64,000 nucleotides of DNA from Capsulimonadaceae bacterium. Its GTDB lineage: Bacteria > Armatimonadota > Armatimonadia > Armatimonadales > Capsulimonadaceae. Below, in pieces: positions 2,237 to 20,068 of this stretch (within the stretch, counting starts at the first letter, position 1; the number at the start of each line of letters is the position of its first letter). The stretch is from NCBI GenBank assembly GCA_031292625.1, contig JARLGU010000057.1, positions 1 through 64,000 on the forward strand. The letters are read 5' to 3'. The notes under the pieces are model-generated. The model worked only from the letters and a program-made list of their open reading frames with translations, made no database searches and was not told where the DNA came from. Made by a program: the position numbers and the translations under genes.

Positions 2237-5200
2237 TTAACCGGCATCGCCGTCATCCGGCTGGCTGGAGCGCGCATTCAGCGCGTCAAGGATCGCCGTG
2301 TATGAGAGACGCTCCGCATGCTCCGCCAACAGGTGGCCAAGGCCGGGATGCTCATTGGCAATCTCGGCGATAACCGCCCCGATCGTGGCGGAGTCGAGCC
2401 CGAGAAGAGCCGTGGAAAGACGGCGACGTAGATCGTAGCGCACGTTGGCGAAGGCATCCGGGGCGAAGACGGACGGCAGGCGGGACGGATCGGCGGGTGC
2501 AAACATCTCGTCCTCGTAGATAAACTTCACTCCAAGATGTTTGACCATACAGGCGTAAATCTCTTCGGCACGGTACGGCTTTCGGACGAAATCGTCCATG
2601 CCGACCTCAAGGCTTTCCGCGCGCTGATCCATGTACGCGGAGGCGCTCACGCCGATGATCTTGACGTCGCGCCCGCAGTCGAGTTGCCGGATCTTCCGGG
2701 TAGCCGCCAAACCGTTCATCACGGGCATCCGGCGATCCATCCAAATCAAATCAGGACGCCACGCTTCAAACGCCTCGACAGCCTTAGCGCCATTCTCGGC
2801 GGTCCGGACAATAAAGCCCGGTTTTTCGAGAATGCGCTGCAGCAACAAGGTGTTCTCCGGCTGGTCATCGACAACCAGGACGCGGTAAACCGGCTGACCG
2901 GGCACCAGACCGATGACGCAACCAAGTTCGCCCGCATTTGCGACAATATCGGCTTCATCGGCTCGTTCGACGGGGATGCTCGCACGGAAGCAGGACCCTG
3001 CGCCGAGGACACTCTCCACCGCTAGCGTCCCGCCCATCAAGTGAACGTACTGGCTGGTAATCGTCAAGCCGAGGCCGCTTCCCTTGCGCGCCGTGGCGTC
3101 GCCGAGTTGAACGAAGGGCTCGAAGATGCGCGTCTGATCCGCGGGATCGATGCCAGGACCGGTATCCGTGACTTCAAAGATCACGGTAATCTTACGCTCG
3201 TCGTGACCGTCCTTCGTGCTGACGCCGACTTTAACGGTGCCGGCATCGGTATATTTGATCGCATTATTGATCAGATTAATCAACACCTGCCGCAGCTTCG
3301 CGCCATCGACGCGAACGAATCGCGGACAACGCGAGGCCTGGTCCAGCGCAAGCACGAGCCCCTTTTCCTCAGCGCGCAGAGACATCAAGTCGGCGACATC
3401 GCGCACCATTTCGCCAAGATCGCATGCGGCGGGCGAAAGCGACAGCTTGCCGGCCTCGATGCGGGCGACATCGAGGACATCGTTGATCAAATTGAGCAAA
3501 TACTCGCCGCTGCGGTTAATGATGTCGAGGGTCTTGCGCTGGGCGTCGGTAAGACCGGCGTCGATGCGCATAAGGTTGGAGAAACCGAGCACGGCGTTAA
3601 GCGGCGTCCGAAGTTCATGATTCATGTTGGCCAAAAACTCGCTCTTCGCCTGGTTCGCCGCCTCGGCCTGGTCGCGCGCCTGCACCAACTCGGCTGTCCG
3701 TTGACGAACCAGCTCTTCCAGATTCTCCTTGTAGCTGCGCAAGTCTGCGTCGACGCGCTTGCGTTCGGTAATGTCGACCAGCGACGCTAACGTCGCCAAC
3801 TGGCCCATGTACTCGATTTCGCTTGCCAGAACCTCGACATCGACAACCCTGCCGCCCTTGGCAAGAAATCGCGCCTCGTAGTGCCGGCGGCGCCCCCCGG
3901 CGTCAACGCACTCCTGATACCGGTTTTTGACGCTCTCCCGGTCATCCGGATGCACGACTTCCCAGGGCGTTAACATGAGCATTTCCGCCGGCGTCCGGCC
4001 AAGCATTTGCGCGTAGACGGGGTTGGTATATACGTAGTTGCCGCCCTGATGTATACAGACTCCGACGAGAGACTCTTCCGTAATGGTTCGAAAACGCGCC
4101 TCACTCTCCCGAAGCGCCTGTTCCGCCTGTTTTTGCCGCGATATATCACGAATAATTCCGCGATAGGACGTCGTCACGCCCTCCTTGTTCTTTACGGCGG
4201 CAAGGGAGCAATGCGCGATCATATCCTCGCCGTTCTTCTTCTTTACCGTGACATCGTATTCAGCGTAACCCAACTCATCGATCATTGCGAGGATGCGCGC
4301 CCGATCTCCAGGAACGGCATAGACATCCTTGTTCAGGTCGAGACGAAGAACTTCTTCCTTCGAATCGTATCCGAACAATTGAACGCCCTTGCGGTTCATG
4401 TCGATAATGCATCCAGCGGGCGTCGTCATGTATAGCCCGTCAAACGATTCTTCCCACAGCGTTCGATACTTGAGCTCGCTTTCCCTGAGCTCTTCCTCCG
4501 CGCGTGCGAGTTCCGCCTGTGCCGTAAGCGTGCAGATGCCGAAGGCCAAGTCGCCGGCAAGCTCCTCAAGCAAAGCGAGCTCTTCCGCGCAGAAGGCATC
4601 CGCGTTAGCCGAATATACCGTCAGCGCTCCAAAGGTCTTGCCATGTGCCGTAAGCGGCAGGCAAGCGCTTGAGTTATAACCCATGCGAATCGCGGCGTCG
4701 CGCCAGGGGCGCATCGCTGGATTCGTCTGAAAATTCTGGTTGACCTGAGTTTTGCCGCTCGTGATTGCAAGGCCCGTGGGTCCGCCCCCGCGTTCTTTGT
4801 CGTTCAAGTCAATATGAAGGTGCTCTAGGTAACCATCGACGTGGCCATAGTAGCTAACGACCCGAACCTCGGCATCGCCGGGACCTCCAGCGTAGCCGAC
4901 CCACGCCATTTCGTATCCGCCCTCGTCGACAACGATCCTGCAAACATCGTGCAGGAGCGTTGCTTCGTCCTTAATGCGGATCAGCATTTGGTTGACATCG
5001 CTGAGCATCCGCAGCGCGCGCACGCCCATGGCAAGTTCAATCTCGGCCTGTTTGCGCTCGGTGATGTCGGTAAACATAACGACCAAATCGGAAGGGCTGT
5101 TTGCATCGTTTAAAATGTTTGACGCTGCTCCGAGCCCCCAAACGCTTCTTCCATCCTTGGCTCGGAAGCGGTATTCGACGAGTCGAATTTTCCCGGAGCG

Positions 5201-6124
5201 AAGGTTCGCCAGCAACTCGTCAAGACCGGCTTGATCTTCCTCGAACGAGAAATCGGTTACAGGATGGCCAATCATCTCTTCGACCGTATACCCAAGCATC
5301 TTGGTCATGCTAGGGTTTACGAAAGTCGTGTTGGAATCGGGGCCAAGCATCCAAATTCCTTCGGTGCTCGTTTCAATAATGCACCGGTATCTTGCCTCGC
5401 TCATCCTCAGCTCTTCCGCGGTTCGCTTGCGTTCCTCCATTTCAAGCGCAAGCTGAGCGTTTCTGAGTTCGAGCTCCGCGTTCTTTTCGCGGAGCAACTC
5501 TTCGGCCTCTCTTCCAGCGGCGACATACCGGGCAAGCTGAAGATTTTTGAAGGCGGTGTTGGAAAGCTGGTTGGCAAGCGTAAAGAGAACGTTCGCGCTC
5601 TTGTCGAACTGCTCGCGGGACATTCCTGGCACCTCGCGGAAAGCCTCCGCGGCCGCCTCTTCATCCGCGCCAATCTTCCTGGCATACTCCCGGATGTTTT
5701 CCTCGGTCTGGGTTTTGTCGCGCACTTGACCGATCAGCCAGTTACCGATATGCCGTCCTCCGACCGTAATTGCCGCGCCGGCATCCCAGAGTCCGCCGCT
5801 CATACACGGCTGAACGGTCGGACCATTGGTGCGAGCGACGCCCAATGCCGCGTCCGACCTGTAGCAATTCGCCTGGCCAAGCTTCGTATTGCGTATGAGG
5901 TCTTTACACAAGCGGCAAAAGTTCGACGGGGAAGTGATTGGCGTCCCATCCGGTTGAGTGATGAGGGACGCGACGCCCATGGCGTCCGCAAATTGATCTT
6001 GAAGGCTTTGAATATCCTCAAGATCGAAGAGGTCGGCAAAGGAAACGTTCTCTAACCCGGCTACCTGCGATGCCTGCTTAGGATCCTGATCATTGCCATC
6101 ATCAGTCAACACGTTCACCCTCAC
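2237..6124 (-). CDS. PocR-PAS-GAF-PAS-PAS hybrid sensor histidine kinase
   Basis: A 1295-aa hybrid kinase without transmembrane segments, so probably cytosolic. Approximate domain order: a PocR-type sensory domain at 28-205 with conserved cysteines ([20 protein letters not shown]), a coiled segment at 205-245, PAS at 245-365, GAF at 375-545, PAS at 550-670, PAS at 680-795, HisKA with phospho-acceptor H836 in [11 protein letters not shown], HATPase_c at about 950-1065 (DTGPGID and GSGLGLTI boxes), and a receiver with phospho-acceptor D1130 in [11 protein letters not shown]. The last 90 residues are not an Hpt domain that I recognise. The start is GTG. A second GTG four codons later is better placed after AGGG, so the exact N-terminus is uncertain. 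PocR domains bind small organic ligands such as propanediol or redox-sensitive metals, and the Cys set here fits a metal or redox role. The response regulator gene lies 26 nt upstream. Confidence 0.9.
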
Positions 6125-6150
6125 ATATCAATTGATCGTATTCGCTCGCC

Positions 6151-7164
6151 TCAGAACGCCATATCGACGCTTTCGATATCCAGCGTCGCCTGCATCGCCG
6201 GATGATCCGGCTTGTTACGGCCTTGTTCAATGACAACCGTTGTGCCTACCGATCCTGTGCACAAATAAACGCGATCGAGCAAACTAAGCATAATCTTCAT
6301 GCCGTAACCAAACGTCCCGGCCGTCGTGTAGCCCTTCATCAGCGTGGCGCGGGGCAGCCGGTCGAGCGCGATGCCCGGTCCTTTATCTTCAATCCGCGCC
6401 TGCACGCGTCCTTCCTTCTCGTCAATTGACACGGTAACCAGCCCCGATCCGACATGGACCACCGCATTCATAGCCGCCTCGTGGATGCCGTTAATCATGT
6501 CAAAGATCCGCTCATCGGAGAGGCCGCATCGTTTCCCGGCGCATGTCGCCAGTTGACGCACGTTGTAAAGATCCGAAGAATCGGTAATCCGCATCGGCGC
6601 GCGAAAAACGGCCAACGGACACGGAAGCTGTTGACCGTCGTAGCACAAGACGAGGACGCCATCGGTGACGCTTGCCAGTACATCATGGAGGAATTGTCTC
6701 TGAAAGGAGGCATTTTCGCGCAGTTGATCGAGCGCTTCCTTTAGCTCCGCGGTCCGTTCCAAAACCAACCGATCGAGCGAGGTTCGCAATCGAGCAAGCT
6801 CAATGTGAGTGCGTACGCGGGCGAGGAGCTCTTCTCTCTGGTAAGGCTTCGTGATATAGTCGACGGCCCCAAGCGACAATCCTGCAACGCGCTCATCCAG
6901 GTTCGCGGCGGCGCTGATGAAGACTACGGGAATATTGCAGGTTGCCGGAGATTCCTTCAGTCGACGGCAAACTTCATAGCCGTCGAGCCCCGGCATGCGG
7001 ATGTCGAGCAGAATTAACGCGGGAGGGTTGGCAAGCGCCGAAGCGAGCGCGAGCACTCCGCTGTCCGCGGGGCGAACGGCATATCCCTCGGCAACCAGAA
7101 TGCCGGTAAGCAACCTTAAGGACTCGCTTGTGTCGTCGACTACCAGAATCCCGTCGCTCATCAT
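6151..7164 (-). CDS. response regulator with C-terminal anti-sigma-type HATPase domain
   Basis: A 337-aa protein. An N-terminal receiver (residues 1-125) has the acidic pair DD10/11, phospho-acceptor D54 in LILLDIRMPG, and a K in ITKPYQREEL. A coiled linker (about 125-170, RTHIELARLRTSLDRL) leads to a C-terminal GHKL/HATPase domain like RsbW or SpoIIAB (EAAMNAVVH near 235, IEDKGPGI near 262, GYGMKIM near 290). There is no DNA-binding domain. Such proteins usually phosphorylate an anti-anti-sigma factor or act as phospho-relay switches, but no partner is encoded nearby. The start at 7164 is chosen because GAAGGAG precedes it by 5 nt, and two ATGs are adjacent. It is the first gene of a probable operon with the downstream hybrid kinase, which likely phosphorylates D54. 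Confidence 0.87.
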   Translation of the reverse strand: MMSDGILVVDDTSESLRLLTGILVAEGYAVRPADSGVLALASALANPPALILLDIRMPGLDGYEVCRRLKESPATCNIPVVFISAAANLDERVAGLSLGAVDYITKPYQREELLARVRTHIELARLRTSLDRLVLERTAELKEALDQLRENASFQRQFLHDVLASVTDGVLVLCYDGQQLPCPLAVFRAPMRITDSSDLYNVRQLATCAGKRCGLSDERIFDMINGIHEAAMNAVVHVGSGLVTVSIDEKEGRVQARIEDKGPGIALDRLPRATLMKGYTTAGTFGYGMKIMLSLLDRVYLCTGSVGTTVVIEQGRNKPDHPAMQATLDIESVDMAF

Positions 7165-7211
7165 GAGCTCTCCTTCGGTAGCATCGCGGCGCTTCTTCAA
7201 AATGCGTACAG

Positions 7212-7601: not shown

Positions 7602-7641
7602 AAAAAAGAACGAGGCCGCCGGAGTGGGGATGCGGCGGCCT
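7602..7641 (-). terminator. intrinsic terminator after the lipoprotein gene
   Basis: On the minus strand AGGCCGCC and GGCGGCCT form an 8-bp stem around a 13-nt loop, followed by CGTTCTTTTTT. It lies 10 nt past the stop of the lipoprotein gene and would end transcripts of both the lipoprotein and the giant repeat protein. Confidence 0.88.
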
Positions 7642-7651
7642 ACCATCCGGC

Positions 7652-8062
7652 CTAGATCGTGGTCGGCGGCGACGGCGGCGTACTCGATACGGAAATCGAT
7701 CCGATGTTCACGGTAGTGGACCCGGTAATCGTTGTACTCGAAACGGTCGTCGTGGACAAAATGTTGCCGCTCTGATCGACAATCTCGATAACTCCGGAGC
7801 TCGTGGAAGGAATCGCGCTTGCAGGGATCGTCAGCGTGAATTTGCCAGTGGCGGAATCCGCCGTCGTTGTAACCGTTGATGTGCCGACATAGCTCACCGT
7901 ATAAGTGTGACCGGAGCTTGTTCCCGAAACCGTACCTGTTACAGTGTAGCTCGTCGGCGTCCCTGATCCGCTGCTCCCGCCGCCGCAACCAACCACGAGG
8001 GTCAGCGCCGCAATCGCGGCGAAAGCCGTTGCCCACCGGAAAAAGATCTGCATTGTTTCCAT
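7652..8062 (-). CDS. small lipoprotein with Ser/Thr-rich beta domain
   Basis: A 136-aa predicted lipoprotein. The signal peptide has a hydrophobic core (ATAFAAIAALTL) and a lipobox VVGC followed by GGGSSGSG. The mature part is dominated by Thr, Ser, Val and Gly (TVTGTVSGTSSG, SATGKFTLTIPASAI) and resembles a single carboxypeptidase regulatory-like or Ig-like sandwich. The gene begins 45 nt after the stop of the giant repeat protein on the same strand and is followed by a strong terminator, so the two are probably co-transcribed. It may be an envelope partner of that protein, which is inference. A second ATG three codons downstream could be the real start. No enzymatic motif is visible. Confidence 0.75.
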   Translation of the reverse strand: METMQIFFRWATAFAAIAALTLVVGCGGGSSGSGTPTSYTVTGTVSGTSSGHTYTVSYVGTSTVTTTADSATGKFTLTIPASAIPSTSSGVIEIVDQSGNILSTTTVSSTTITGSTTVNIGSISVSSTPPSPPTTI

Positions 8063-8107: not shown

Positions 8108-11100
8108 CTAATGAGCAATGACCAGAGTGCAAGCGTTGTACGCATACACCCAGTATCCAACCCAGGGCTGAAGCGATCCTGATGTATCCATTGTCACCGA
8201 AGTGTACGTATAGGAGCTGGGATCGAACGAGAAGAACGTCGGCGACACCAGATTGGCGCCGGTCGACGAAGTTGCCTGCGCCCAGGTATAGCTCTTGCTC
8301 GAATAGGTAACCGTAAGCTTGGTTCCTGCTGCCTCCGCCGTATCCCATGGGCTGCCGATCAGGTTCCAGCCTGCGTACAGCTTGATCGTCGCGGGCGTCG
8401 TTTCCGAGGCCATTGCCGTATAGCTTCCAAGCAGGCCGACCTTGCCGGCCACCGGCGTTGTCAACGAGTCGAGGTTGCGGAAACGTACCCAGAAGCCCTG
8501 CCCGCGCGCGAACGACGACGGCTCCAACCAGCTCTGCGAAGATCCGTCCCAGCAGGCGATTTGCTGGCCGGAAATCCAGCTGCCGCCGAACCGGTCGGAC
8601 ATACTCAGGCTGTCGGTGAAATCGTACGGCACGGAAATCATCTGCAGGCCATACGGGTAAGAACTCGTTGCCGGGTAATTGGGATTGACCACCGACGAGA
8701 ACTCGTGGACGGGCGTGAGCGCCGCGTTCTGCCGGACGGAGCCCGTAACCGACAATCCAGTGGACGCCGTAAGCGGCGAGTTGCCGTATATCGAATCGGT
8801 CACCGTTACGGTGTATGCCACCGGGTTGGTTCCATCCAACGAGCCAGTCACCGGCACGTTGGTGATCGCGTAGTTGCTTGGGCTGCCGTCGGTCCCCGTT
8901 GTCAGCGCCACGGTCGTTCCGGTGTAGGTGACCGTATTGCCGAGAGCGTCTTTCGATGTCAACGTCACGGTTGCCGGCTCCGCGCTTGAGACGCCATGGC
9001 TGGAATCGTAGTGCGTATCCGAGCAAGATATAAGGCCGTAAACCGTTGCCGTCGCTACAGAGGAAAGTGACAGAGGGAAGCTCGCCGGATTCGCGCTCGG
9101 CGTATTGGCAACGCCATTGGTCGAGTAAAGGTTGACAAGCGTAACCGCTGTCGAACCCGGCTTGTAGGGCAGCGACGGGCTCGCGGTCGCCGTAAACAAC
9201 TGGCCGGCCGGCAGCCGGCTCGAAGCCGTTGGGCCCGACGAGAACGTCACTTGCCCGTTTGACGCCGTTACGGCGCTGTGCGAGCTAAGCGCGGCATTGG
9301 CGCTCGAGAGCACAACCGTGACGCCGCTGAGCGGCTTAGCGGTCGCGCTGTCCGTGACGGTAACAGTTGCACCCAGTTCGACGAGCGTTATGCTCTTCGA
9401 CAGGCTCGTTCCCGAGCCGCCATATGCCACTGTCGACGTGTCCGTCAAATACCCGCTGGCGGATGTATTGATCGTATAGTTGCTTCCGGCGACTGCGGCG
9501 ACGGACGCAATGTATGTGCCGGTTGCCGTGTTGTACGATGCTGCTGTCGTGTTGTTGTTCGGATCGGTGACCGTCACGGTCGCATCGCTCAGCGGCGTCG
9601 ATCCGTCCAAGACCGTCACGGCAAGGCTAAGCTGGCTTGCCGTCAGCGGGATTGGATTGGGCGACGGTGAGTTGATATTCTGTCCAACGCTCGTCGTCGA
9701 CCCGGTGGGCACGTACGTGTTTGGCGTTCCGCCTTGCGACGTCGGGTCGCTGACCGTCGTCACCGTCGCGGCGCTGCTGGTCGCATAGCTAGACGCGGAG
9801 ACCGTCACCGTATACTTCGTCCCGGCCGCGATGCGGCCGCCCGTTGGCGTCGACTTCAGGACGAAGCTGCCGCTGGCTCCGGTTGTCGCCGGGGTCATCG
9901 CGGGAGTCGTCACGATCGAAACGGTCGCCCCGCCAATTCCTGCCAATGTCGAGCCGTCAACGACCGTCCCGTCGATCTCGGACGGAACCAGGGTAACGCT
10001 CTTGGTGAGACCGGATCCAACTGTTGCGAAAGTAAACGGCGTCTGGTCGGTGAGATAGCCCGTATCGCCAACGGATAGCGTGTACGAGCCAGATTGGACA
10101 GGAACGCTGGCGACGTAGGTTCCAGCGGTCTTATTGTAGACCGCGGTCGTCGAACCGCCGGTGTAGCTAACAGCGACGCTCGCATCGCCGAGAGCCGTGG
10201 AACCGTCTTGCACCGTCACCGTCACATTCTGCGACGCGGGCGTAAGCAGGATCGGATTAGGGGACGGCGTGTTGATGTTATAGTACACGCCCGTCGACGG
10301 ATCGGGATCCGGCTTCCCACTTGTCGATGTCGGATTCGGCCACGTCGTCAACCCGGCCGAACTACTCGTCTGATAGCCGGATGCGGCGACGCTGAGCGTA
10401 TACTGCGTGCCCGCCGTGATCCGATTCGTGGATGTTCCGACGATCTTGAAGCTGCCGTCTGCGGCTGTCGTCCCGGTCAATGTCCCGCCGTTCGCGCCGG
10501 ATGCCTTGACAACCGTCACCGTGGCGCCGGCGATCGGACCGGTCACGGGCGACGTTGATGCGTTGATCACGGAACCGTCGATCTCAGGCTGAACGAGAGT
10601 CACGGTTTGCGTAACGCCACCGGCGGCGCCGGAGAATGCGAACGTGGACATGTCGGTCAGGAAACCGTTATCGGAGACAGTAACCTTGTACTTGCCCTGT
10701 TGTGGCAACACCGTCGCGGTGTAGGCCGACGCGGCGGCGCTATACGTCGCCTGAGCCGTCGTTACGCTGTCTGGATAAGTGATCATCACCGTTGCGTCGA
10801 CCAGCGCCGCGAGGGGTGTCGATCCGCCGTCTTCAACAATCACTGTCACGGTTTGCGAAAGCGGCGTCAACAAGATCGGTTCGGTCAGCGGGTAGTTGAT
10901 ATTTAGGCCGACTTTGTTCGAGTCCGTGTCCGGCGTCGTCGCTGTCGTCGGCGTGCTGGTGGATGTCGGCGACGTCCTCATCACGACGCTCTCGGAGTTG
11001 TCCGATGCGTAGTTCGTCGCGCTAACCCCTAGCGTGTAGGTCGTGCCTGCCACAAGGCGTATCGTAGGCGTTGTCTTCAGGATGAAGGAGCCATCGGAGC

Positions 11101-14100
11101 CGGTGGTAGCGCTCAGCGTTCCGCCCAAGCCTGGCACCGTGACGACAGCGCCCGAAATCAGTTGGGTAAACGGGGACGTTCCCACGTTTTGCACGATGCC
11201 GTCGATCTCGGAGCCAACAAGCGAAACGGTCGTGCTGTAGCTCGCGCCAACGGTTGTGAACATGTTCGCAACCGTATCCGTATCGGTCAGGTAACCGGTG
11301 TCGCCCACCACAATCTGGTAGGTTCCCTTCATAACGGGAACGGTCGCGGTGTAGATGCCGATCGCTCCCTTCGCCGTCCAGGTGTTGGACGCCGGATCGA
11401 TAACGGTCACGGTCGTCGTCTTATCGGTCAGCAGCGTGGAGCCGTCCTTGACCGTCACGGTGACGCTCTGGTAACTCGGCGTCATCAAGATTGGATTCGG
11501 CGTCGGGCTGTTGATATTTTCCCTAATGTAGGTCGAAGGATCCGATGTCGGGACGCCCCCCCCGGATGTCGGCGAATTGTACATCGTGACTGACGCCGTG
11601 GTAGCCTGGTAGCTTGCCGCGGTAACCGATAGAGTGTACGTCGCGTTGGAAAGAAGACGCCCGCCGGTCGGCGACGATACGATCTTGTAGCTTCCGCCGC
11701 CAAGGTTAGTCGCCGTCAGCGTTCCAGCGCTCGTGACAAGCGTGGTTGTCGCGTTGGCGATCGCACTGGAGAGCGGCGAAGTAGTGGCATTGCTTATCGT
11801 AAAGTCGACCTCGGATGGAACCAGCACGGCGGTTAGCGCAAGGCTCGTCTCTCCCGTGGGAAATGTAAATTGCGACGTGTCCGTCAGGTAGCCGGGATCG
11901 GAAACCACGAGCGTATACTCGGCCGTCGTTGCTGGAATGCCGATATTATACGTACCGGAGGAAGAGGAATAAGTCCCCGTAACGGAAACCGGATTGCTTG
12001 TCCCCGGTTGCTTGTATGTGACGGTCACGGTGGCGTCGGACAAGACCGTCGCGCCATCCTTTACGGTGACTGTAACATTCTGCGTGCTCAGCGTGAGCGG
12101 GATCGGGTTCGGGCTCGGATAATTGTAGTTATCCTGAATAGGCGTCGTGGAGCCGGTCGGCTCGTAATAGTTTGCCGTTCCACCCGTCGAAGTTCCGAGG
12201 GTCGACGGACTGACCGTGTTACCAAGACTGTCCGTGGACGTTCCCGCGTCGATTGTCACGGTAGCCGTTTTGCTGTTGTACGTTCCCGTCTTTACGGCGG
12301 AAAGCGAGTACGACGTGCCGACCACAAGGCGAGCCGTTGTGCTCGTCGGGTTTGACCGGAACTGGTACGTGCCTGTCGCCCCCGTCTGCACGGCGGCAAA
12401 GCCGGATGCGTTGGTAAGGCTGACCGTCGCGCCGCTAATCGGCAGCGTCGTAAAGTAATCCGTAACCGTGCCGTCGATCTCGACCGGAACGATGCTGTAC
12501 GTATTCGCGTAAGGCGTTCCGACCGACATCGTGAACGTCTCCGTATCAGTCAGGTAGCCTCTGTCGACGATCTTCAACGTGTACGTACCGCTCAAGATCG
12601 CGACCGAGCTATTCTTATAGCCCAAGGCCGTAGAGCTGTACGGCAATGTGTAGCTGCCATTGTTAGGATCGATCAACGTAACCGTCGCATCAGTAAGCAA
12701 CGTCGGCGTGGTTGTATAGACGCTATCCTCTACGACGATCGTGACGGGCTCTGCCGCCGGCGTCAGCTCCAAAACGCCGGGGCCAGCGGTTGACGGATTG
12801 GAGGCCGGAATGTTGACCTGACCGGCCGGTGAGCCGCCATTGGTGGTCGTTCCCGCGACGATCGTAACCGAAGTCGAATTGGGCTGGTACTTGTTCGTGC
12901 TGTCCGTTGCGAGAAGGATATGCGGCGACCCGGTGACGCCAAGTCGTTGCCCCGGAGTCGTGGTTAGCGTATACTTCCCGCCGCCAGCTGTCGTCGCCGA
13001 TAGCGCCGGCGTGATGCCGCTGGCCGTCACCGTAATGCCATCCAGGCCCACGGTCGGCGCAAGCGTCGACGTGATCGTGCCGGAGACCTCGCTCGGCAGA
13101 ACGCCATACGTCTTATTGACGGCCGTGCCGATCGCCATCGTAAACGTCTCGGTGTCGGTCAGATAGCCGTTCTGGACGATCGTGGCCGTATAGGTATCGC
13201 TGACCACTGGGATCGAGGCGTTGTAGTAGCCAAGCTTGCCGGCATTGTATGTCAACGTATAGGAGTTGCTGTGCTGGTCGGTCAGGGTAACGCTACCGGT
13301 CGTCAGCGCAGTGGTAGGCGAATAGACGCCGTCATTGACGACGATTGTCACCGGCTGCGGCACCGGCGAGAGCTCCATCACGCCTGCTCCCGCGGTCGTC
13401 GGCTTGGCAGCCGGCGTATTGTTCTGGCCAGCCGCTGAACCGCCATTGGTCGTTGTCCCGGCGACGATCGTGACCGTCGTCGAGTTCGTCTGGTATGTGC
13501 CCGCGCCGTCGGTTGCGGTGATTGTAATCGGCGACTCGCTCGCGCCAAGCCTCTGCGTGGGCGTACTGGTCAGCGTGTAGTTGCCAGATGAATCGGTCGT
13601 CGCAGTCAGCGCGGGCGACGTACTCGCGCTGATGGTGATATTCGCCAACCCCGTGGTCGGAGCAAGCGTCGACGTGATCTGACCGGTGACCGTGCTCGGC
13701 ACGATGGTGTATGTGTTGGCGTACGCCGAAGTCGTAATTACCGGCGTCTCCGTGTCCGTCAAATAGCCGTCGTCCGCGATCGTCAGCGTGTACGCGCCGC
13801 TGATCACGGGAATCGAGGAATTCGTGTACCCCACGCCCGATGTGTAGCCCAGGTTATAGCTGTTGTTGTTGGGGTCGTACAGGGTCACGGTCGCGTCTTT
13901 CAGAACCGAAGCGCCGTCTTTCACGGTGATCGTTACCGATGTAACGGGATCAAGATCGAGCGTCGGGTCCGCGGCCGGAGAAACCGGGATCGCAATCCCG
14001 CGATGCGCGATTACGACGACCGCTTGGCTAGGCGTGATCCAGCTAGACGATGAACCGGAAGCCTTCGCCGTATAAGAGATGCCCGAATCGGACGCGGTCA

Positions 14101-17100
14101 CGTGATTGAACGTCACCGTTCCCGTGCCGCCGGATGTCGCCTGCGGGTTCGCGACGACGGTACTCAGGCCAGGTGTCGGCGAGAGCGTCACGTCGATGCC
14201 GTCAATGATCGGGTTTCCCGTGAACCCATTGTCCACAAGATACGTAATCGACGTATACGGGATCATGTTCACGGTTGCGGTTGACAGGCCGCCAGCGGCA
14301 GCCGTCGTGACCGTTACCGTCGAACTCGGGTCCTGGTAATAGGAGTTCTTGTCGGCGACGGTGATCGTATAGGTCGTGCTCGGCGTTAAGCCGGTGAACG
14401 TAATCGGGCTGGCCGGCGTGCCGATCACGTTCGTTTGCGTGACACTGGCAACGCCCGGCGTGCTAAGCGTCACGTCGGTCGCGACGAGCAGGTTGGGCAG
14501 AGCGGGAACGTTGACATTGTCCTGCAGCGTAACCGCGATCGATGCGACAACCTTCACCTCGACCTCGATCACCGTCGCGCCGCCCTGCGCCAGCGTGGGC
14601 GAGAACGTGGATGTAAACGCGCCGCCGGTGCTATACCCGACAACCTGATAGTTGGTGCCCGTTGTCAGCGCCGACGTATCAATCGTATAAGCGCCCGCGC
14701 GAACCAGGTAAGAAGTCGATGTGCCGGACGCGGCAACCGGGATGGACGAACTGACGCCCCAGGTTGTGTTCGTCAACGTCACGTTGATTGCGCCGGTCGA
14801 TAGGGTCACGAGATTGTGCGCCGCAGTGTTGTCGACCACTTCGACGGTTACCGTCGTCGCGGGATAGAGCGTTAGCGTGACCGCAGTTGGCGTCTTCTGG
14901 AATGCCACGGTTGTCGTCGTTACGCCAGTGGTCGTCTCCGGCGACTGGACGCCGACCCAGCTTCCGAGGGCGCTGGAGGCGTTCAACGTGTAGGTTGTGC
15001 TTGGCGCAACGGATTCGAAGTCGGCGATGCCCGTATCCGATACCGCAATGGCCGCGGGAACGAAGGTAGGCGGGCTCGTCACCGGAACCGGCGACGGATT
15101 GCTCAACGAGACGCTGATTTCATCCGACGCCTTTGCGGCGACTGGAGTCCCGCTAGGGGTAGACAACTTCTGGACGGTGATTGGAAGATCGGAGTACTCG
15201 TAGAGCGGGACGGTGTACGCGGTATTCGTATTGGCTGGCAGAGCCGCCGTCGTGCCGCTGGCAATCTCGCGACCGCTGATGTCTCCGTAATCCCACGACG
15301 TGCCGTCGACCGTATAGGTATAGGTGAGCAACGCGCCAATATTATCCCAGGTGAGCGCGTTCGGCGGGTTGCTGAGGCTGGAGTCGTAGAAGCTGTCCGT
15401 CAGCGCCGGCGTAGGGCTCACTTCCGGGGTGTAATAGAGCATGCCCGAATCGGTGGTAGTACTCGGCGTTGCGGTGACCGGCAGAGCGGTAAGCGATGCT
15501 CCCGTCAACGGAACGAGCGCGCCGTTCGTTGTGGCATCGATAAAGTTGAGGGTCATGCTGCCAATCGGCTGGATCGTAATCTTCCGCTGTGTCGATACAG
15601 TCTGCGTGCCGAGAGAGCTAACGGCAACGACATAGACGTAATGCACTTGAGGAGCGGTAAGCGTCGTGCCGACGCTCGGCGTAATCGGCCAGTTATAGGT
15701 ATACGTGCTGCCGGTGTACGTGACGCCCGGAGAATCCGAGGATCCGATTTCACTGTACGCGCCGGTCGATACGTTGTAATCGATGAAGTCCACATGCTGG
15801 ACTTTGCCGTCCTGCTCGGCGACATCGGCGCTGATCTGAACGACCTTGTTCGGCGTAAAGTCGACGACCTGGTTGTTGACCGGCAGGTGCATGTCGATCG
15901 TCGGAGCCCGCTCGCCGTGCAGCGTCTGGGCAGTCGAACTGATAAAGTCGATGTCGTCGATATACCAGGTTGGCCCGGCCGTAGTATTGTAAGCCGCATA
16001 GTTCGGATCGCCGACGGCTGCGCCGGATGCGTGGGCAATCGCCATATTGGTCGTGAAAAAGATAGTGGTGCCCGAAACGCCGCCAATCATCAATGTCTCG
16101 GCGTTCGGACTTGCATCCACCGTTAGCTGAGTGCCCGTGAACACGTTGTCGCCGCTTGCGTGTGCGTTTGCCAGCGGCGTAACATATAGCGTCGTGCCGT
16201 TGATCGACGTCACGGTGACAACCTCAGGCGTTGACGACGAATTCGCCGTGCTGACGAAGCTTACGTGCAGCTGAGCGCCGACATGGATACCGGCCGTGCT
16301 GGCAACCGTCAGCGAGGTAGCTCCCACAAGCGTGTCGGCCGATAGTGTCGTGTACAAACCGTTTACGCTGCCAACCTGAATCAGGTTTGTGCCGGCAGTC
16401 GTCGCGCCACTCAAGGTGCTGCCGAAGTACGACGTATCCTCGAGAATCTGGATGCCGTCGAAGTTTAATCCGCCGAACGTTCCGCCGAGCGCATATCCCG
16501 ATATAGGCACTGTCACCTTGGTCCAATAGTTTCGAGTTAATGTAAGCAACTGAGCGGTAGAGTCCGGCCCGGTCACCGGCGTCGTAATCGTCAGGTTCTG
16601 GCTGCCCGCCGCGCCGCCGCTGAGGTACATGGTCAACGTCGATGTCCAGGTGTGGCTGCGATCGGTTTCCGGCTCCATGAGCGCCAACTCGGAGAGCGTG
16701 CCGACCGTCGTTTTCCCGCCGGAGACCGGTCCGGCCGCGACGGAGATGGAGCTTCCTGTCGTAGTATTGCCCGCCGTAACGATCGCCGATCCGACCCCAT
16801 ACTTAGGGTTGTGCATCATGTAATAGTTCGTCGTCGAGCCGGACGGATAAACATACGTGCCGCTAGCAGCCAGGTTGATTGACGCCGTATCGTTAGGGAT
16901 TGCGATAGAAAGAAACGGGCTTACCAGCGAATCGTCATAGATCGAATGAAGAATGTAATCACCGTTTTGATTTTGATAGGAAGGCGCGGTTCCGGCGCTA
17001 TTCGTCCCGCCGTCTATGACGTAGAGGTTTTCGGAGTTCGAAGTCACGACCGCGCCGGTGTCGTCGGTCGCGGTTGCCGAGAACGTATAGAAACCGGCGG

Positions 17101-19879
17101 GCAAACTGGTCAATGCGGTATCCGTAGTACCGAACGTGCTTGCTGGGAACCGGGGGTAGCTAAACAACGGTCCGTTCGTGGCCACTTCCGTCGTACTGGT
17201 AACGCCCGGCGCTGTCTGCGGATTCGCAAACGACTGCAGCAACGCGCCGTTCACATACAGCGAAACATCCGTTAGGTAGTGTCCCGAGCTGGCGCTTGCC
17301 GTCGCCAAGATGGTGGGGCTGAACGGCGCATAGACCGTCGCGCCGCCGGGCGAGTCAAGCTGGCCCGTGTAGGCGGTACTCGCATAATAGGGCGCGACCA
17401 TGTGGATCGACGGCGGAGCGTAGGTTGGATTGTAAGCCGCAAGCGCGCCTTCGCTCTGCTCGTAGTACGATCCGCTGTTCACGCTTTCCAACTTCTCGGC
17501 CCGCACGAGATAATCGTACGCCGTTCCTGACGCCGCCGTCCCGTCCGGGTACGCCTGAACGACAACATCGCCGGATTGGTGCGCATACGTGCATCCGTCG
17601 CCTGACGAGTCGCGCACGACGGTGACGACGCTTCCGTTTATCGCAGCTATCGTAACAACTTCCGTGCTGCCGCCGCTGAGGATCTCGATTGGCGTCCCGG
17701 TGCTGAGGCCTGCAACCGAGCCCAGAGTCATCGTCGACACCGCAGTCACCGAGTCGCCGGACGAGTGCGCGTAGGCTGGGTCGGCCGTCAGCGTTAGAGT
17801 CGTTCCAGAGACGGATGCAACAGTCACGGTCTCCGGCGTTGTTCCGCCGGCTCCCAGGTTCAACGTCGTACCTGCGCTGATCCCAGTTGCACTCGCTACC
17901 ACCAACGTCGGGGATGTTGTCGTCGCTGCGGACGAAAGTGTCGTGATTGCGCAAGCTGGAATATCCGCCGACAACGATGTTGTTATCGGAGTCCAATTTT
18001 TCGCCAGCAAAGTGAATGGCCCGCTGGAGGAGGTTCCGCGATAGATGTTGTAGGTCGTCACGGTCGTATCAAGGGACGGAGAAAAGGCGACATCGACGGC
18101 CGGAGATGCGACAGGATCTTCGATTGCGACAGCGCCGGTAGGCGGCTGGACGACGAACGAGCGGAGGGTCGGATCGCCCAGGAAGCCCATGGCCACGGAA
18201 CCGCCGGCGTTCTGGCTCAAAAGCTCATCGTAGTACGCGCAGTCTCCAAGGCCCATGTGGTACATCGTCCACTCGGGCCGGTTGGACCAGAAGGCCGTGA
18301 GACCATAAGTGGTCGTCGCCAACGCCGCTCGCATGAAGTCATCAGACTCCATGTAGTCGCCGAAATAGCTGCCGAACAACATATAGAAAAAGGCATGCGG
18401 ATCATACAGCTTGAAGTCCGCCGTATCGCCAACGCCCACGGCCGAATTAGGCGATCCGGGTCCATCGCCGTACATCCACGTATAGCTGCCGGTCTGCGCA
18501 TCCTCCATGATGGGATAGTACTCATCCATCGTGTTCGTCACGGCCGTCAGCGGATTTGCTTCGATACCGTAAGGATTGCTCGCGCTTACGGAACTCGGAC
18601 CAAGTATCGAGCCAATATCGCGCCAACCATCGTCCGCATAGGCGTCAAAATTATCCGTCAAGCGGGCTTCGCCAAGCGCCGTAAGCACGCCCGTGCGGTA
18701 GCCGTGGTCCTTATCGAGGTAGTTGGCGAGCAACTGCTCCTCGGCAACCGTCGCGTTCGAGGTCGTCGACCAGGTGGGCATCGTCGACATATCGATTCTG
18801 CCGACGCCGAACAAGATCGGATTCTGAGGCGCATCCTGGTCAAACTTGCCGTCAGCCAGGGCGTTGAAGTTGCGGATGTCCGTCGCCTTCGTGTCCTTCA
18901 CGGTCGAGTCGGTCCAACCGGTAACGATGCTCTGATGCAAACCAATGTTGGCGCCGTATTCATCGTCTTTCCCGTCGCCATAATAGACATCGGCAGGCCA
19001 GGCGCCGATGTGGCCCGTATGGCCGTCTGGAGCATAATCCCCTGAATACGGCACGGAAACGTGACCGATAATGATAATCGCCTTGAGATCAGGATGGGCT
19101 TGATAGTCTGTATAAATGAGATGCTTGACGGCCTTGACGGAGTCCCCGGCGAAGGCGGGCGTAACGTCGGCGGGGACGCCGGAACCGTTTAGGCCGGGAT
19201 CGCGCGCAACCGAGTGGTTCGTGTCATAGATGACGTTCCAACCATCCGCCACGAGGTCCGCAACGAGGCGCAAAATGCGCGCGCGCATGCTCTGGTCGAG
19301 CGCCGTAGCCGATGCGGGAGACGTGACCGTATCCGAGCCGTCCACCGTCTTGTCGGAGATGATGTCCACGGTGCCGCGCTGGCCGGCATAAGTGAACGGC
19401 TGGTTCGTAAAAGGGTTGGTCCCGGTCGGGAATGTCGTCACGGGCGGAAGCTGGTAACCGGCGAAGATATGGCCGGTAGCGCCGGGAACGGTGGTAACCG
19501 TGTAGTCGTACGCGGATCCGGTTACGGGCGGGACGATCGTATACGTAGACGGATTCGCAACGGCGGTGGCCTCGCTGGCTGCGTTGTCGGTCCAACTCCC
19601 GGATGTGCCGTTCACGGCCGCCGTCGTGAAGGTGGCCGTGTTACCCAACGAATCGGTTCTTACGATCGTAAGCGCGGCGGACTGAGTATCGACCGTCGAC
19701 CAGTTGAGCGTGATCGCGCCCGACGCTGCACTCGCGTTCAGAAACACCACGTTCGCCTTGTCCTGCGCGAAGCCCTGTTGGAACGCGGCGAAAAGCAGGA
19801 AAAGCAACGCGACGGCATTGAGAGCCCATCGGATCCGCAAGGGCGAGGCGCCGACTAAGCGACAAGAAGAGGATTGCAT
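8108..19879 (-). CDS. giant secreted multi-repeat surface protein (about 3,920 aa)
   Basis: The start at 19879 gives a Sec signal peptide (ALNAVALLFLLFAAF, then QQGFAQ); GGAG lies 11 nt upstream. Residues about 30-600 form a C25/gingipain-like region: LKAIIIIGHVSVPYSG, GHIGAWPADVYYGD and later YMLFGSYFGDY, where the family's catalytic Cys would be expected but is not seen. This is followed by fibronectin-like segments (TTYNIYRGTSSSGPF) and two GTTLTL-type motifs. About 2030-3480 holds eight tandem units of roughly 200 aa, each built from a VTVTVxDG start, an ATVTV strand, GYLTDT, and an (S/D)EIDGTV segment, similar to carboxypeptidase regulatory-like domains. The last 200 residues (LQMISVPYDF, AGWNLIGSPW, WVGYWVYAY) look like a surface-anchoring or sorting module. 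Composition is extremely Thr/Ser/Val-rich with few Cys. Likely an adhesin, matrix or S-layer-type protein. Confidence 0.88.
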   Translation of the reverse strand: MQSSSCRLVGASPLRIRWALNAVALLFLLFAAFQQGFAQDKANVVFLNASAASGAITLNWSTVDTQSAALTIVRTDSLGNTATFTTAAVNGTSGSWTDNAASEATAVANPSTYTIVPPVTGSAYDYTVTTVPGATGHIFAGYQLPPVTTFPTGTNPFTNQPFTYAGQRGTVDIISDKTVDGSDTVTSPASATALDQSMRARILRLVADLVADGWNVIYDTNHSVARDPGLNGSGVPADVTPAFAGDSVKAVKHLIYTDYQAHPDLKAIIIIGHVSVPYSGDYAPDGHTGHIGAWPADVYYGDGKDDEYGANIGLHQSIVTGWTDSTVKDTKATDIRNFNALADGKFDQDAPQNPILFGVGRIDMSTMPTWSTTSNATVAEEQLLANYLDKDHGYRTGVLTALGEARLTDNFDAYADDGWRDIGSILGPSSVSASNPYGIEANPLTAVTNTMDEYYPIMEDAQTGSYTWMYGDGPGSPNSAVGVGDTADFKLYDPHAFFYMLFGSYFGDYMESDDFMRAALATTTYGLTAFWSNRPEWTMYHMGLGDCAYYDELLSQNAGGSVAMGFLGDPTLRSFVVQPPTGAVAIEDPVASPAVDVAFSPSLDTTVTTYNIYRGTSSSGPFTLLAKNWTPITTSLSADIPACAITTLSSAATTTSPTLVVASATGISAGTTLNLGAGGTTPETVTVASVSGTTLTLTADPAYAHSSGDSVTAVSTMTLGSVAGLSTGTPIEILSGGSTEVVTIAAINGSVVTVVRDSSGDGCTYAHQSGDVVVQAYPDGTAASGTAYDYLVRAEKLESVNSGSYYEQSEGALAAYNPTYAPPSIHMVAPYYASTAYTGQLDSPGGATVYAPFSPTILATASASSGHYLTDVSLYVNGALLQSFANPQTAPGVTSTTEVATNGPLFSYPRFPASTFGTTDTALTSLPAGFYTFSATATDDTGAVVTSNSENLYVIDGGTNSAGTAPSYQNQNGDYILHSIYDDSLVSPFLSIAIPNDTASINLAASGTYVYPSGSTTNYYMMHNPKYGVGSAIVTAGNTTTGSSISVAAGPVSGGKTTVGTLSELALMEPETDRSHTWTSTLTMYLSGGAAGSQNLTITTPVTGPDSTAQLLTLTRNYWTKVTVPISGYALGGTFGGLNFDGIQILEDTSYFGSTLSGATTAGTNLIQVGSVNGLYTTLSADTLVGATSLTVASTAGIHVGAQLHVSFVSTANSSSTPEVVTVTSINGTTLYVTPLANAHASGDNVFTGTQLTVDASPNAETLMIGGVSGTTIFFTTNMAIAHASGAAVGDPNYAAYNTTAGPTWYIDDIDFISSTAQTLHGERAPTIDMHLPVNNQVVDFTPNKVVQISADVAEQDGKVQHVDFIDYNVSTGAYSEIGSSDSPGVTYTGSTYTYNWPITPSVGTTLTAPQVHYVYVVAVSSLGTQTVSTQRKITIQPIGSMTLNFIDATTNGALVPLTGASLTALPVTATPSTTTDSGMLYYTPEVSPTPALTDSFYDSSLSNPPNALTWDNIGALLTYTYTVDGTSWDYGDISGREIASGTTAALPANTNTAYTVPLYEYSDLPITVQKLSTPSGTPVAAKASDEISVSLSNPSPVPVTSPPTFVPAAIAVSDTGIADFESVAPSTTYTLNASSALGSWVGVQSPETTTGVTTTTVAFQKTPTAVTLTLYPATTVTVEVVDNTAAHNLVTLSTGAINVTLTNTTWGVSSSIPVAASGTSTSYLVRAGAYTIDTSALTTGTNYQVVGYSTGGAFTSTFSPTLAQGGATVIEVEVKVVASIAVTLQDNVNVPALPNLLVATDVTLSTPGVASVTQTNVIGTPASPITFTGLTPSTTYTITVADKNSYYQDPSSTVTVTTAAAGGLSTATVNMIPYTSITYLVDNGFTGNPIIDGIDVTLSPTPGLSTVVANPQATSGGTGTVTFNHVTASDSGISYTAKASGSSSSWITPSQAVVVIAHRGIAIPVSPAADPTLDLDPVTSVTITVKDGASVLKDATVTLYDPNNNSYNLGYTSGVGYTNSSIPVISGAYTLTIADDGYLTDTETPVITTSAYANTYTIVPSTVTGQITSTLAPTTGLANITISASTSPALTATTDSSGNYTLTSTPTQRLGASESPITITATDGAGTYQTNSTTVTIVAGTTTNGGSAAGQNNTPAAKPTTAGAGVMELSPVPQPVTIVVNDGVYSPTTALTTGSVTLTDQHSNSYTLTYNAGKLGYYNASIPVVSDTYTATIVQNGYLTDTETFTMAIGTAVNKTYGVLPSEVSGTITSTLAPTVGLDGITVTASGITPALSATTAGGGKYTLTTTPGQRLGVTGSPHILLATDSTNKYQPNSTSVTIVAGTTTNGGSPAGQVNIPASNPSTAGPGVLELTPAAEPVTIVVEDSVYTTTPTLLTDATVTLIDPNNGSYTLPYSSTALGYKNSSVAILSGTYTLKIVDRGYLTDTETFTMSVGTPYANTYSIVPVEIDGTVTDYFTTLPISGATVSLTNASGFAAVQTGATGTYQFRSNPTSTTARLVVGTSYSLSAVKTGTYNSKTATVTIDAGTSTDSLGNTVSPSTLGTSTGGTANYYEPTGSTTPIQDNYNYPSPNPIPLTLSTQNVTVTVKDGATVLSDATVTVTYKQPGTSNPVSVTGTYSSSSGTYNIGIPATTAEYTLVVSDPGYLTDTSQFTFPTGETSLALTAVLVPSEVDFTISNATTSPLSSAIANATTTLVTSAGTLTATNLGGGSYKIVSSPTGGRLLSNATYTLSVTAASYQATTASVTMYNSPTSGGGVPTSDPSTYIRENINSPTPNPILMTPSYQSVTVTVKDGSTLLTDKTTTVTVIDPASNTWTAKGAIGIYTATVPVMKGTYQIVVGDTGYLTDTDTVANMFTTVGASYSTTVSLVGSEIDGIVQNVGTSPFTQLISGAVVTVPGLGGTLSATTGSDGSFILKTTPTIRLVAGTTYTLGVSATNYASDNSESVVMRTSPTSTSTPTTATTPDTDSNKVGLNINYPLTEPILLTPLSQTVTVIVEDGGSTPLAALVDATVMITYPDSVTTAQATYSAAASAYTATVLPQQGKYKVTVSDNGFLTDMSTFAFSGAAGGVTQTVTLVQPEIDGSVINASTSPVTGPIAGATVTVVKASGANGGTLTGTTAADGSFKIVGTSTNRITAGTQYTLSVAASGYQTSSSAGLTTWPNPTSTSGKPDPDPSTGVYYNINTPSPNPILLTPASQNVTVTVQDGSTALGDASVAVSYTGGSTTAVYNKTAGTYVASVPVQSGSYTLSVGDTGYLTDQTPFTFATVGSGLTKSVTLVPSEIDGTVVDGSTLAGIGGATVSIVTTPAMTPATTGASGSFVLKSTPTGGRIAAGTKYTVTVSASSYATSSAATVTTVSDPTSQGGTPNTYVPTGSTTSVGQNINSPSPNPIPLTASQLSLAVTVLDGSTPLSDATVTVTDPNNNTTAASYNTATGTYIASVAAVAGSNYTINTSASGYLTDTSTVAYGGSGTSLSKSITLVELGATVTVTDSATAKPLSGVTVVLSSANAALSSHSAVTASNGQVTFSSGPTASSRLPAGQLFTATASPSLPYKPGSTAVTLVNLYSTNGVANTPSANPASFPLSLSSVATATVYGLISCSDTHYDSSHGVSSAEPATVTLTSKDALGNTVTYTGTTVALTTGTDGSPSNYAITNVPVTGSLDGTNPVAYTVTVTDSIYGNSPLTASTGLSVTGSVRQNAALTPVHEFSSVVNPNYPATSSYPYGLQMISVPYDFTDSLSMSDRFGGSWISGQQIACWDGSSQSWLEPSSFARGQGFWVRFRNLDSLTTPVAGKVGLLGSYTAMASETTPATIKLYAGWNLIGSPWDTAEAAGTKLTVTYSSKSYTWAQATSSTGANLVSPTFFSFDPSSYTYTSVTMDTSGSLQPWVGYWVYAYNACTLVIAH
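9330..13960 (-). repeat. eight tandem coding units of about 600 bp inside the giant gene
   Basis: The GYLTDT motif, or a close variant (GFLTDM, GYLTDQ), recurs at about 13765, 13155, 12550, 11885, 11290, 10655, 10055 and 9455, with spacings of roughly 595-665 bp. Within each unit the order VxDG, ATV, GYLTDT, EIDG/EVDG is kept. Units differ at many positions, so the array is old or under diversifying change and is not a fresh slip-strand expansion. Confidence 0.85.
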
Positions 19880-20039
19880 ATATTGTGTTTCTCCAACGCC
19901 GGCATGCACGCCGCAAAGACCAAAGTCGGGAACGTGCAGCGCGATTAACTGACTAACGGCGGCGCCTGGGGACAGCGGGCGGCACAGCCCACCTGACGCG
20001 CATCAATATCATGAATAAATCAAGAATATGAACCGTACC

Positions 20040-20068
20040 ATTATAGCACCGGAGCCGCAAACAGGCAA
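20040..20068 (-). promoter_or_regulatory. sigma70-type promoter of the giant repeat-protein gene
   Basis: On the minus strand, TTGCCT, a 17-nt spacer, then TATAAT preceded by TGC (extended -10). Transcription would start near 20033 and leave a leader of about 150 nt before the ATG at 19879. I could not match this leader to a known riboswitch. Confidence 0.72.

Follow-up and report, generated by a model that had tools for sequence, protein, structure and literature searches.

Organization of the locus

A giant gene lies on the minus strand of the window (the whole 64,000-nt stretch of DNA that was analysed, from a Capsulimonadaceae bacterium) as a single uninterrupted open reading frame (8108..19909), with 3,933 codons from a GTG and 3,923 from the ATG at 19879, so that the one gene of about 3,920 residues described in the initial annotation is confirmed (Table 1; residue numbers are counted from the GTG). 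Its ATG is preceded by a GGAG stretch resembling a ribosome-binding site. The sigma-70-like promoter candidate is weak, because four such sites occur in the region and 5.0 are expected by chance. The likely signal peptide (MQSSSCRLVGASPLRIRWALNAVALLFLLFAAFQQGFAQ) was seen by eye and is also positive by a crude rule, which passes 56% of control ORFs. The protein is rich in Thr and Ser and has few Lys, Arg and Cys, and it runs from an N-terminal head through eight stalk units to a C-terminal module.

A small lipoprotein gene on the same strand starts 45 bp after the stop codon of the giant gene. No terminator-like site was found between the two genes among the scanned sites; behind the lipoprotein gene, a 73-base stretch around a GC hairpin folds at -25.3 kcal/mol, its loop being too long for the terminator scan. 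Because of this hairpin and the absence of a scanned terminator between the genes, the co-transcription that had been stated earlier is likely, and the lipobox and the position of the neighbour agree with the earlier description. Just downstream of the lipoprotein gene, the same strand carries a PocR-PAS-GAF hybrid histidine kinase and a HATPase_c_2 response regulator (window 2237-7200).

Table 1. Features of the giant gene and its surroundings (window coordinates).
Feature	Position	Strand	Remarks
Candidate sigma-70-like promoter	20040..20068	minus	TTGCCT-17-TATAAT with TG extension; weak
Giant, probably secreted protein gene	8108..19879	minus	3,923 aa from ATG 19879; GTG 19909 alternative; open frame
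Likely signal peptide	19763..19879	minus	residues 11-49; Arg n-region, hydrophobic core, AQ end
N-terminal head	18011..19381	minus	degenerate C25 (gingipain-like) domain and start of Fn3-like domain
Ser514	18368..18370	minus	aligns with the catalytic Cys of C25 relatives (alignment A3)
Eight units of ~200 residues, W1-W8	9092..13954	minus	residues 1986-3606; each of two transthyretin-like beta-sandwiches
C-terminal module	8111..8668	minus	residues 3748-3933; two homologous halves (alignments A1/A2)
Small lipoprotein gene	7652..8062	minus	136 aa from ATG; TTG 8080 alternative; lipobox LVVGC, then Gly/Ser-rich linker
Terminator-like GC hairpin and T run	7602..7640	minus	after the lipoprotein gene

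Stalk units

Paired sandwiches of the CarboxypepD_reg type are a common stalk design. In the giant protein, alignment of the eight units places a GYLTDT-type mark in the first sandwich of each and a TYTLSV-type mark in the second. The former occur at residues 2048, 2248, 2451, 2673, 2872, 3082 (GFLTDM), 3284 (GYLTDQ) and 3486, with spacings of 200, 203, 222, 199, 210, 202 and 202. The eight units at near-constant spacing (199-222) thus agree with the initial annotation, but the exact GYLTDT by which it had marked all of them is present in six only. The repeat is not a product of chance, because self-comparison peaks at offsets of 200-203 and their multiples and Pfam finds eight CarboxypepD_reg stretches (PF13620; E 9e-16, 58.4 bits vs a curated cut-off of 32.3). 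The likeness to the CarboxypepD_reg or prealbumin-like (SpaA-type) repeats of bacterial surface proteins lies in the spaced beta-sandwich stalk, whereas here the sandwiches are paired in a GYLTDT-marked double unit of ~200 residues that occurs eightfold (three times in a paralogue on contig C20 of the same genome).

Identity between units is 25-57% (W1 and W2 being the closest pair), and third codon positions agree at 38-52% in the unit pairs compared, which indicates that the units, diversified as had been proposed, are old. Recent tandem duplication was rejected since the third positions are nearly saturated. In the C20 paralogue (4,162 aa), the three units C1-C3 match W6-W8 in order (46, 58 and 47%), and the two proteins can be aligned over 954 columns up to the C-terminus with 52% identity; a search of the same genome at E 1e-6 found no such units besides those three. 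Judged from these alignments, the array is old and not a recent expansion, and its length differs between the giant and the C20 paralogue. Several short TxLTVAxxxGIxxGxxLxL...HxSGDxV repeats, unlike the eight units, occur at residues ~650-1310 (window 15900-18000).

N-terminal head

The head (residues ~177-633) is 32% identical over 427 residues to one protein of the phylum (L123; E 9e-22). Relatives of the head number only four in 291 genomes of the phylum, all of them remote (L123 and three still more remote); none of these genomes is of the same genus, and a full-length orthologue of the giant was not found in them with the head as query. The single head sequence as query against the collected genome contigs gave no match. 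SLH domains are present in all three remote relatives, of which L124 and L002 also exceed the Peptidase_C25 cut-off. A profile of the three C25-like relatives finds the head of the giant with an E of 3e-5 for a search space of 1,000, and Pfam gives no match of the head to Peptidase C25 (PF01364) at E up to 1. In an alignment that is itself remote (A3; 25-32% identity), the three C25-like relatives keep HG and C, whereas the giant and L123 have no His at that place and Ser replaces the Cys; C25-like framework residues and a GDPTLR end are kept in the head of the giant. An AF2 model of the head from five sequences reached a pLDDT of 29, and no structural reading was drawn from it.

These comparisons give moderate support to the head as a degenerate relative of Peptidase C25 (gingipain), with a remote link, and it differs from that family in lacking the catalytic His and Cys in the alignment and a Pfam match of its own. 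The enzyme-like N-terminal region of the initial annotation therefore applies by descent and not to the catalytic residues. An active C25 peptidase was rejected because these residues are missing in the alignment. It is in our opinion very improbable that the head nevertheless cleaves peptides by means of an altered dyad, which would make the giant a tethered protease: the C25-like framework and the GDPTLR end are kept, but no His is found where the relatives have HG, Ser stands at the place of Cys, and the same holds for the degenerate relative L123 (counter-evidence drawn from sequence, with the distant alignment and the low-scoring head model as its frame).

The C-terminal module

The end of the giant protein, in which the initial annotation had recognized an NLIGSPW...GYWVYAY module, belongs to a genuine sequence family. 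The module consists of two halves (GLxxxSxPYDY...GYWxRF and AGWNxIGxPF...GYWxYA), whose homology is indicated by an hhalign probability of 95.6% (E 1.3e-8). The giant matches the A1 module profile over its full length at the C-terminus (E 8e-64, with the giant's own row in A1) and the stop codon follows directly; module copies of the same genome outside A1 reach E 5e-71 against this profile. No Pfam family fits the 35 module sequences, and a PDB sequence search gave no relevant match. Structure prediction, which had been proposed for this region, yielded an AF2 model from the 35 sequences with a pLDDT of 84.8 and no clear PDB match; Foldseek found nothing at E<=0.001 and the best Z in VIA was 4.7, a result compatible both with a known fold and with a new one.

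A profile search showed that the module ends 12 ORFs of the giant's genome, the heads of which are unrelated, among them a kumamolisin-type protease, a right-handed beta-helix with Big_3_5, FG-GAP with chitobiase C-terminal repeats, a 4,468-residue Fn3 chain and a PD40/CarboxypepD_reg protein. The giant is an extreme example of such an exchange of heads before a common stalk and end. Among 61 Armatimonadota genomes the module was present in 58 (1-14 copies each), and it is a phylum-wide C-terminal module, not one special to the giant. Among named records, close relatives of the module come chiefly from Armatimonadetes bins, and one from a Capsulimonas sp.; partial or full matches also occur beyond the phylum (e.g., in Ignavibacteria, Desulfobacterales, Cyclobacteriaceae and some archaea), and the module is therefore not strictly private to Armatimonadota. 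In 178 of 181 distinct complete proteins it lies no more than 320 residues from the C-terminus (<=25 residues in 41, 26-150 in 8, 151-320 in 129, further in 3). By the crude rule, a signal-peptide-like start was found in 112 of 124 module ORFs vs 175 of 311 other ORFs. Many genomes have two to four module proteins in a cluster, and several long module proteins occur per genome.

The C20 paralogue of the giant (4,162 aa; L009:1238-13726) lies beside another giant module protein (2,394 aa; L003:4283-11467). The pair is related to a widespread PD40/CarboxypepD_reg module protein, which elsewhere is clustered with a subtilase module protein (L087), and directly downstream of the C20 pair a secreted protein of 661 aa is encoded (L003:2108-4093), the start of which is CsgG-like by eye, with no Pfam match. 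The Fn3 chain on contig C33 (L006:2689-16095; 4,468 aa) contains at least 24 Fn3 domains and resembles the giant in its C-terminal module and in the type of lipoprotein encoded behind it.

A single C-terminal module shared by many secreted heads is the pattern known from sorting or anchoring domains, and the module is read as such a domain for that reason; it looks like an undescribed tag for cell-surface display. In this it is like the known C-terminal sorting domains (type IX secretion CTD, PEP-CTERM, LPXTG), which likewise stand as one module on unrelated secreted proteins, but it differs from them in its ~185 residues in two homologous halves and in matching no Pfam or NCBIfam sorting model. 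A plain terminal capping or ligand-binding domain would also fit the C-terminal place. We regard it as rather unlikely that the C-terminal module binds carbohydrates or the cell wall instead of serving as a sorting signal, in which case the giant would attach as an adhesin or matrix protein through this end. A two-fold repeated, beta-rich module with conserved aromatics (GWN, GYW) and enzyme-like heads would suit such a role, and neither Foldseek nor VIA offers a clear fold to decide; the almost invariable place in the last 320 residues argues against it, since binding domains often stand at varied places, as do the very different likely substrates of the module proteins.

The probable lipoprotein partner

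The earlier suggestion of a link between the giant and the lipoprotein gains from the order of module gene and lipoprotein gene, which is seen again at many other loci. On C33, a lipoprotein 58% identical to the giant's neighbour is encoded behind the 4,468-aa module protein, and a third one behind another module gene; the same order is found in the relatives G002 and G003. A small poly-Gly lipoprotein gene lies at most 250 bp downstream of 14 of 173 module genes vs 2 of 289 others (p 4e-5, which ignores genome kinship; the controls are other genes of at least 400 aa in the same loci), and these pairs are spread over several families. The pairing of module and lipoprotein is thus real but not universal. 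As 159 of the 173 module genes have no such neighbour and only 3 of the 11 checked in the giant's genome do, the lipoprotein is not a general anchor of the module.

In a further alternative, the giant would be secreted as a component of a matrix or fibre, and assembly through its module would give a sheath or S-layer-like coat, nucleated by the lipoprotein. The recurrent pairing would agree with it, as would the several long module proteins per genome, the Thr/Ser-rich composition low in Lys, Arg and Cys, and the grouping of two to four module proteins that many genomes show; but the heads differ widely, and both abundance and self-assembly are hypothetical, so that we consider it improbable.

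On balance, we favour a surface-displayed stalk protein, of which the module would be a phylum-wide C-terminal domain for sorting, anchoring or assembly and the lipoprotein a likely partner. The giant would be exported through Sec via its signal peptide, displayed outside the cell and retained or assembled at the outer surface through the module, which the cell would recognize for one of these purposes. Some 16 transthyretin-like sandwiches, or more, would form the stalk that keeps the head far from the cell. Having no catalytic residues in the alignment, the head would probably bind rather than cut, and the lipoprotein is likely to be the membrane-attached partner of the module. Of the secreted surface protein of the initial annotation, the stalk-like make-up and the secretion are supported by the signal peptide, the domain make-up and the family context, and an exposed fibre or matrix protein is one possible form of display beside others.

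Proposed surface display in Armatimonadota

The Armatimonadota are a poorly studied phylum with very few cultured members. In the open-access papers searched, we found no description of protein surface display in the phylum and no paper on its type IX secretion or on the module. As the module has no Pfam match and is present in nearly every genome of the phylum, it can be used to compile, species by species, the proteins likely to lie at the surface.

Across most of the phylum, ~265 residues with a terminal FlgD-Ig-like domain (FlgD_ig, PF13860) come after the module, which is therefore not always the last signal. These tailed proteins have a homologous module (A2) and heads of similar kinds to those of the giant's family, whereas the tail is missing from the module proteins read in the latter. 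Most genomes with the tail also carry a protein of ~1,000 aa that matches SprA in part (positions 587-690, at most 45 bits vs a cut-off of 200), the gene of which, here called barrel-like, stands directly upstream of a module gene in several lineages. In the 61 genomes tested, a full-length barrel-like gene was found in 39 (median of 4 FlgD_ig matches) and was absent in 22 (median 0; p 5e-8); at the level of families the association holds as well (16 vs 9 families, p 7e-4), both p-values ignoring the relatedness of the genomes. Where the barrel-like gene is missing, the module C-termini that were read have no FlgD tail (f1, G020, G023, G024, G034, G037, G047, G050); the giant's genome (G000) has no such gene, and its module proteins were read without the tail.

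A SprA/Sov translocon (TIGR04189) exceeded the cut-off in 0 of 41 genomes, with no candidate in that of the giant, and a type IX CTD model was found neither among the NCBIfam matches of the giant at E up to 1 nor in Pfam for the 35 module sequences. Type IX secretion of the giant was rejected because its genome has no SprA match and no CTD model matches.

The ~1,000-aa SprA-like protein may be a barrel and may export proteins. It is possible, if doubtful, that the Armatimonadota have a surface-display system of their own, in which the module on unrelated exported proteins and a lipoprotein partner are mostly completed by the FlgD-Ig tail and an SprA-related outer-membrane barrel of ~1,000 residues, and of which the giant's family would represent a reduced form without barrel and tail. 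Such a system, if real, would amount to type IX-like export beyond the groups known to have it. In several lineages the barrel-like gene (L138-L144, L149) lies downstream of a gene that is CsaB-like by eye and of other envelope genes.
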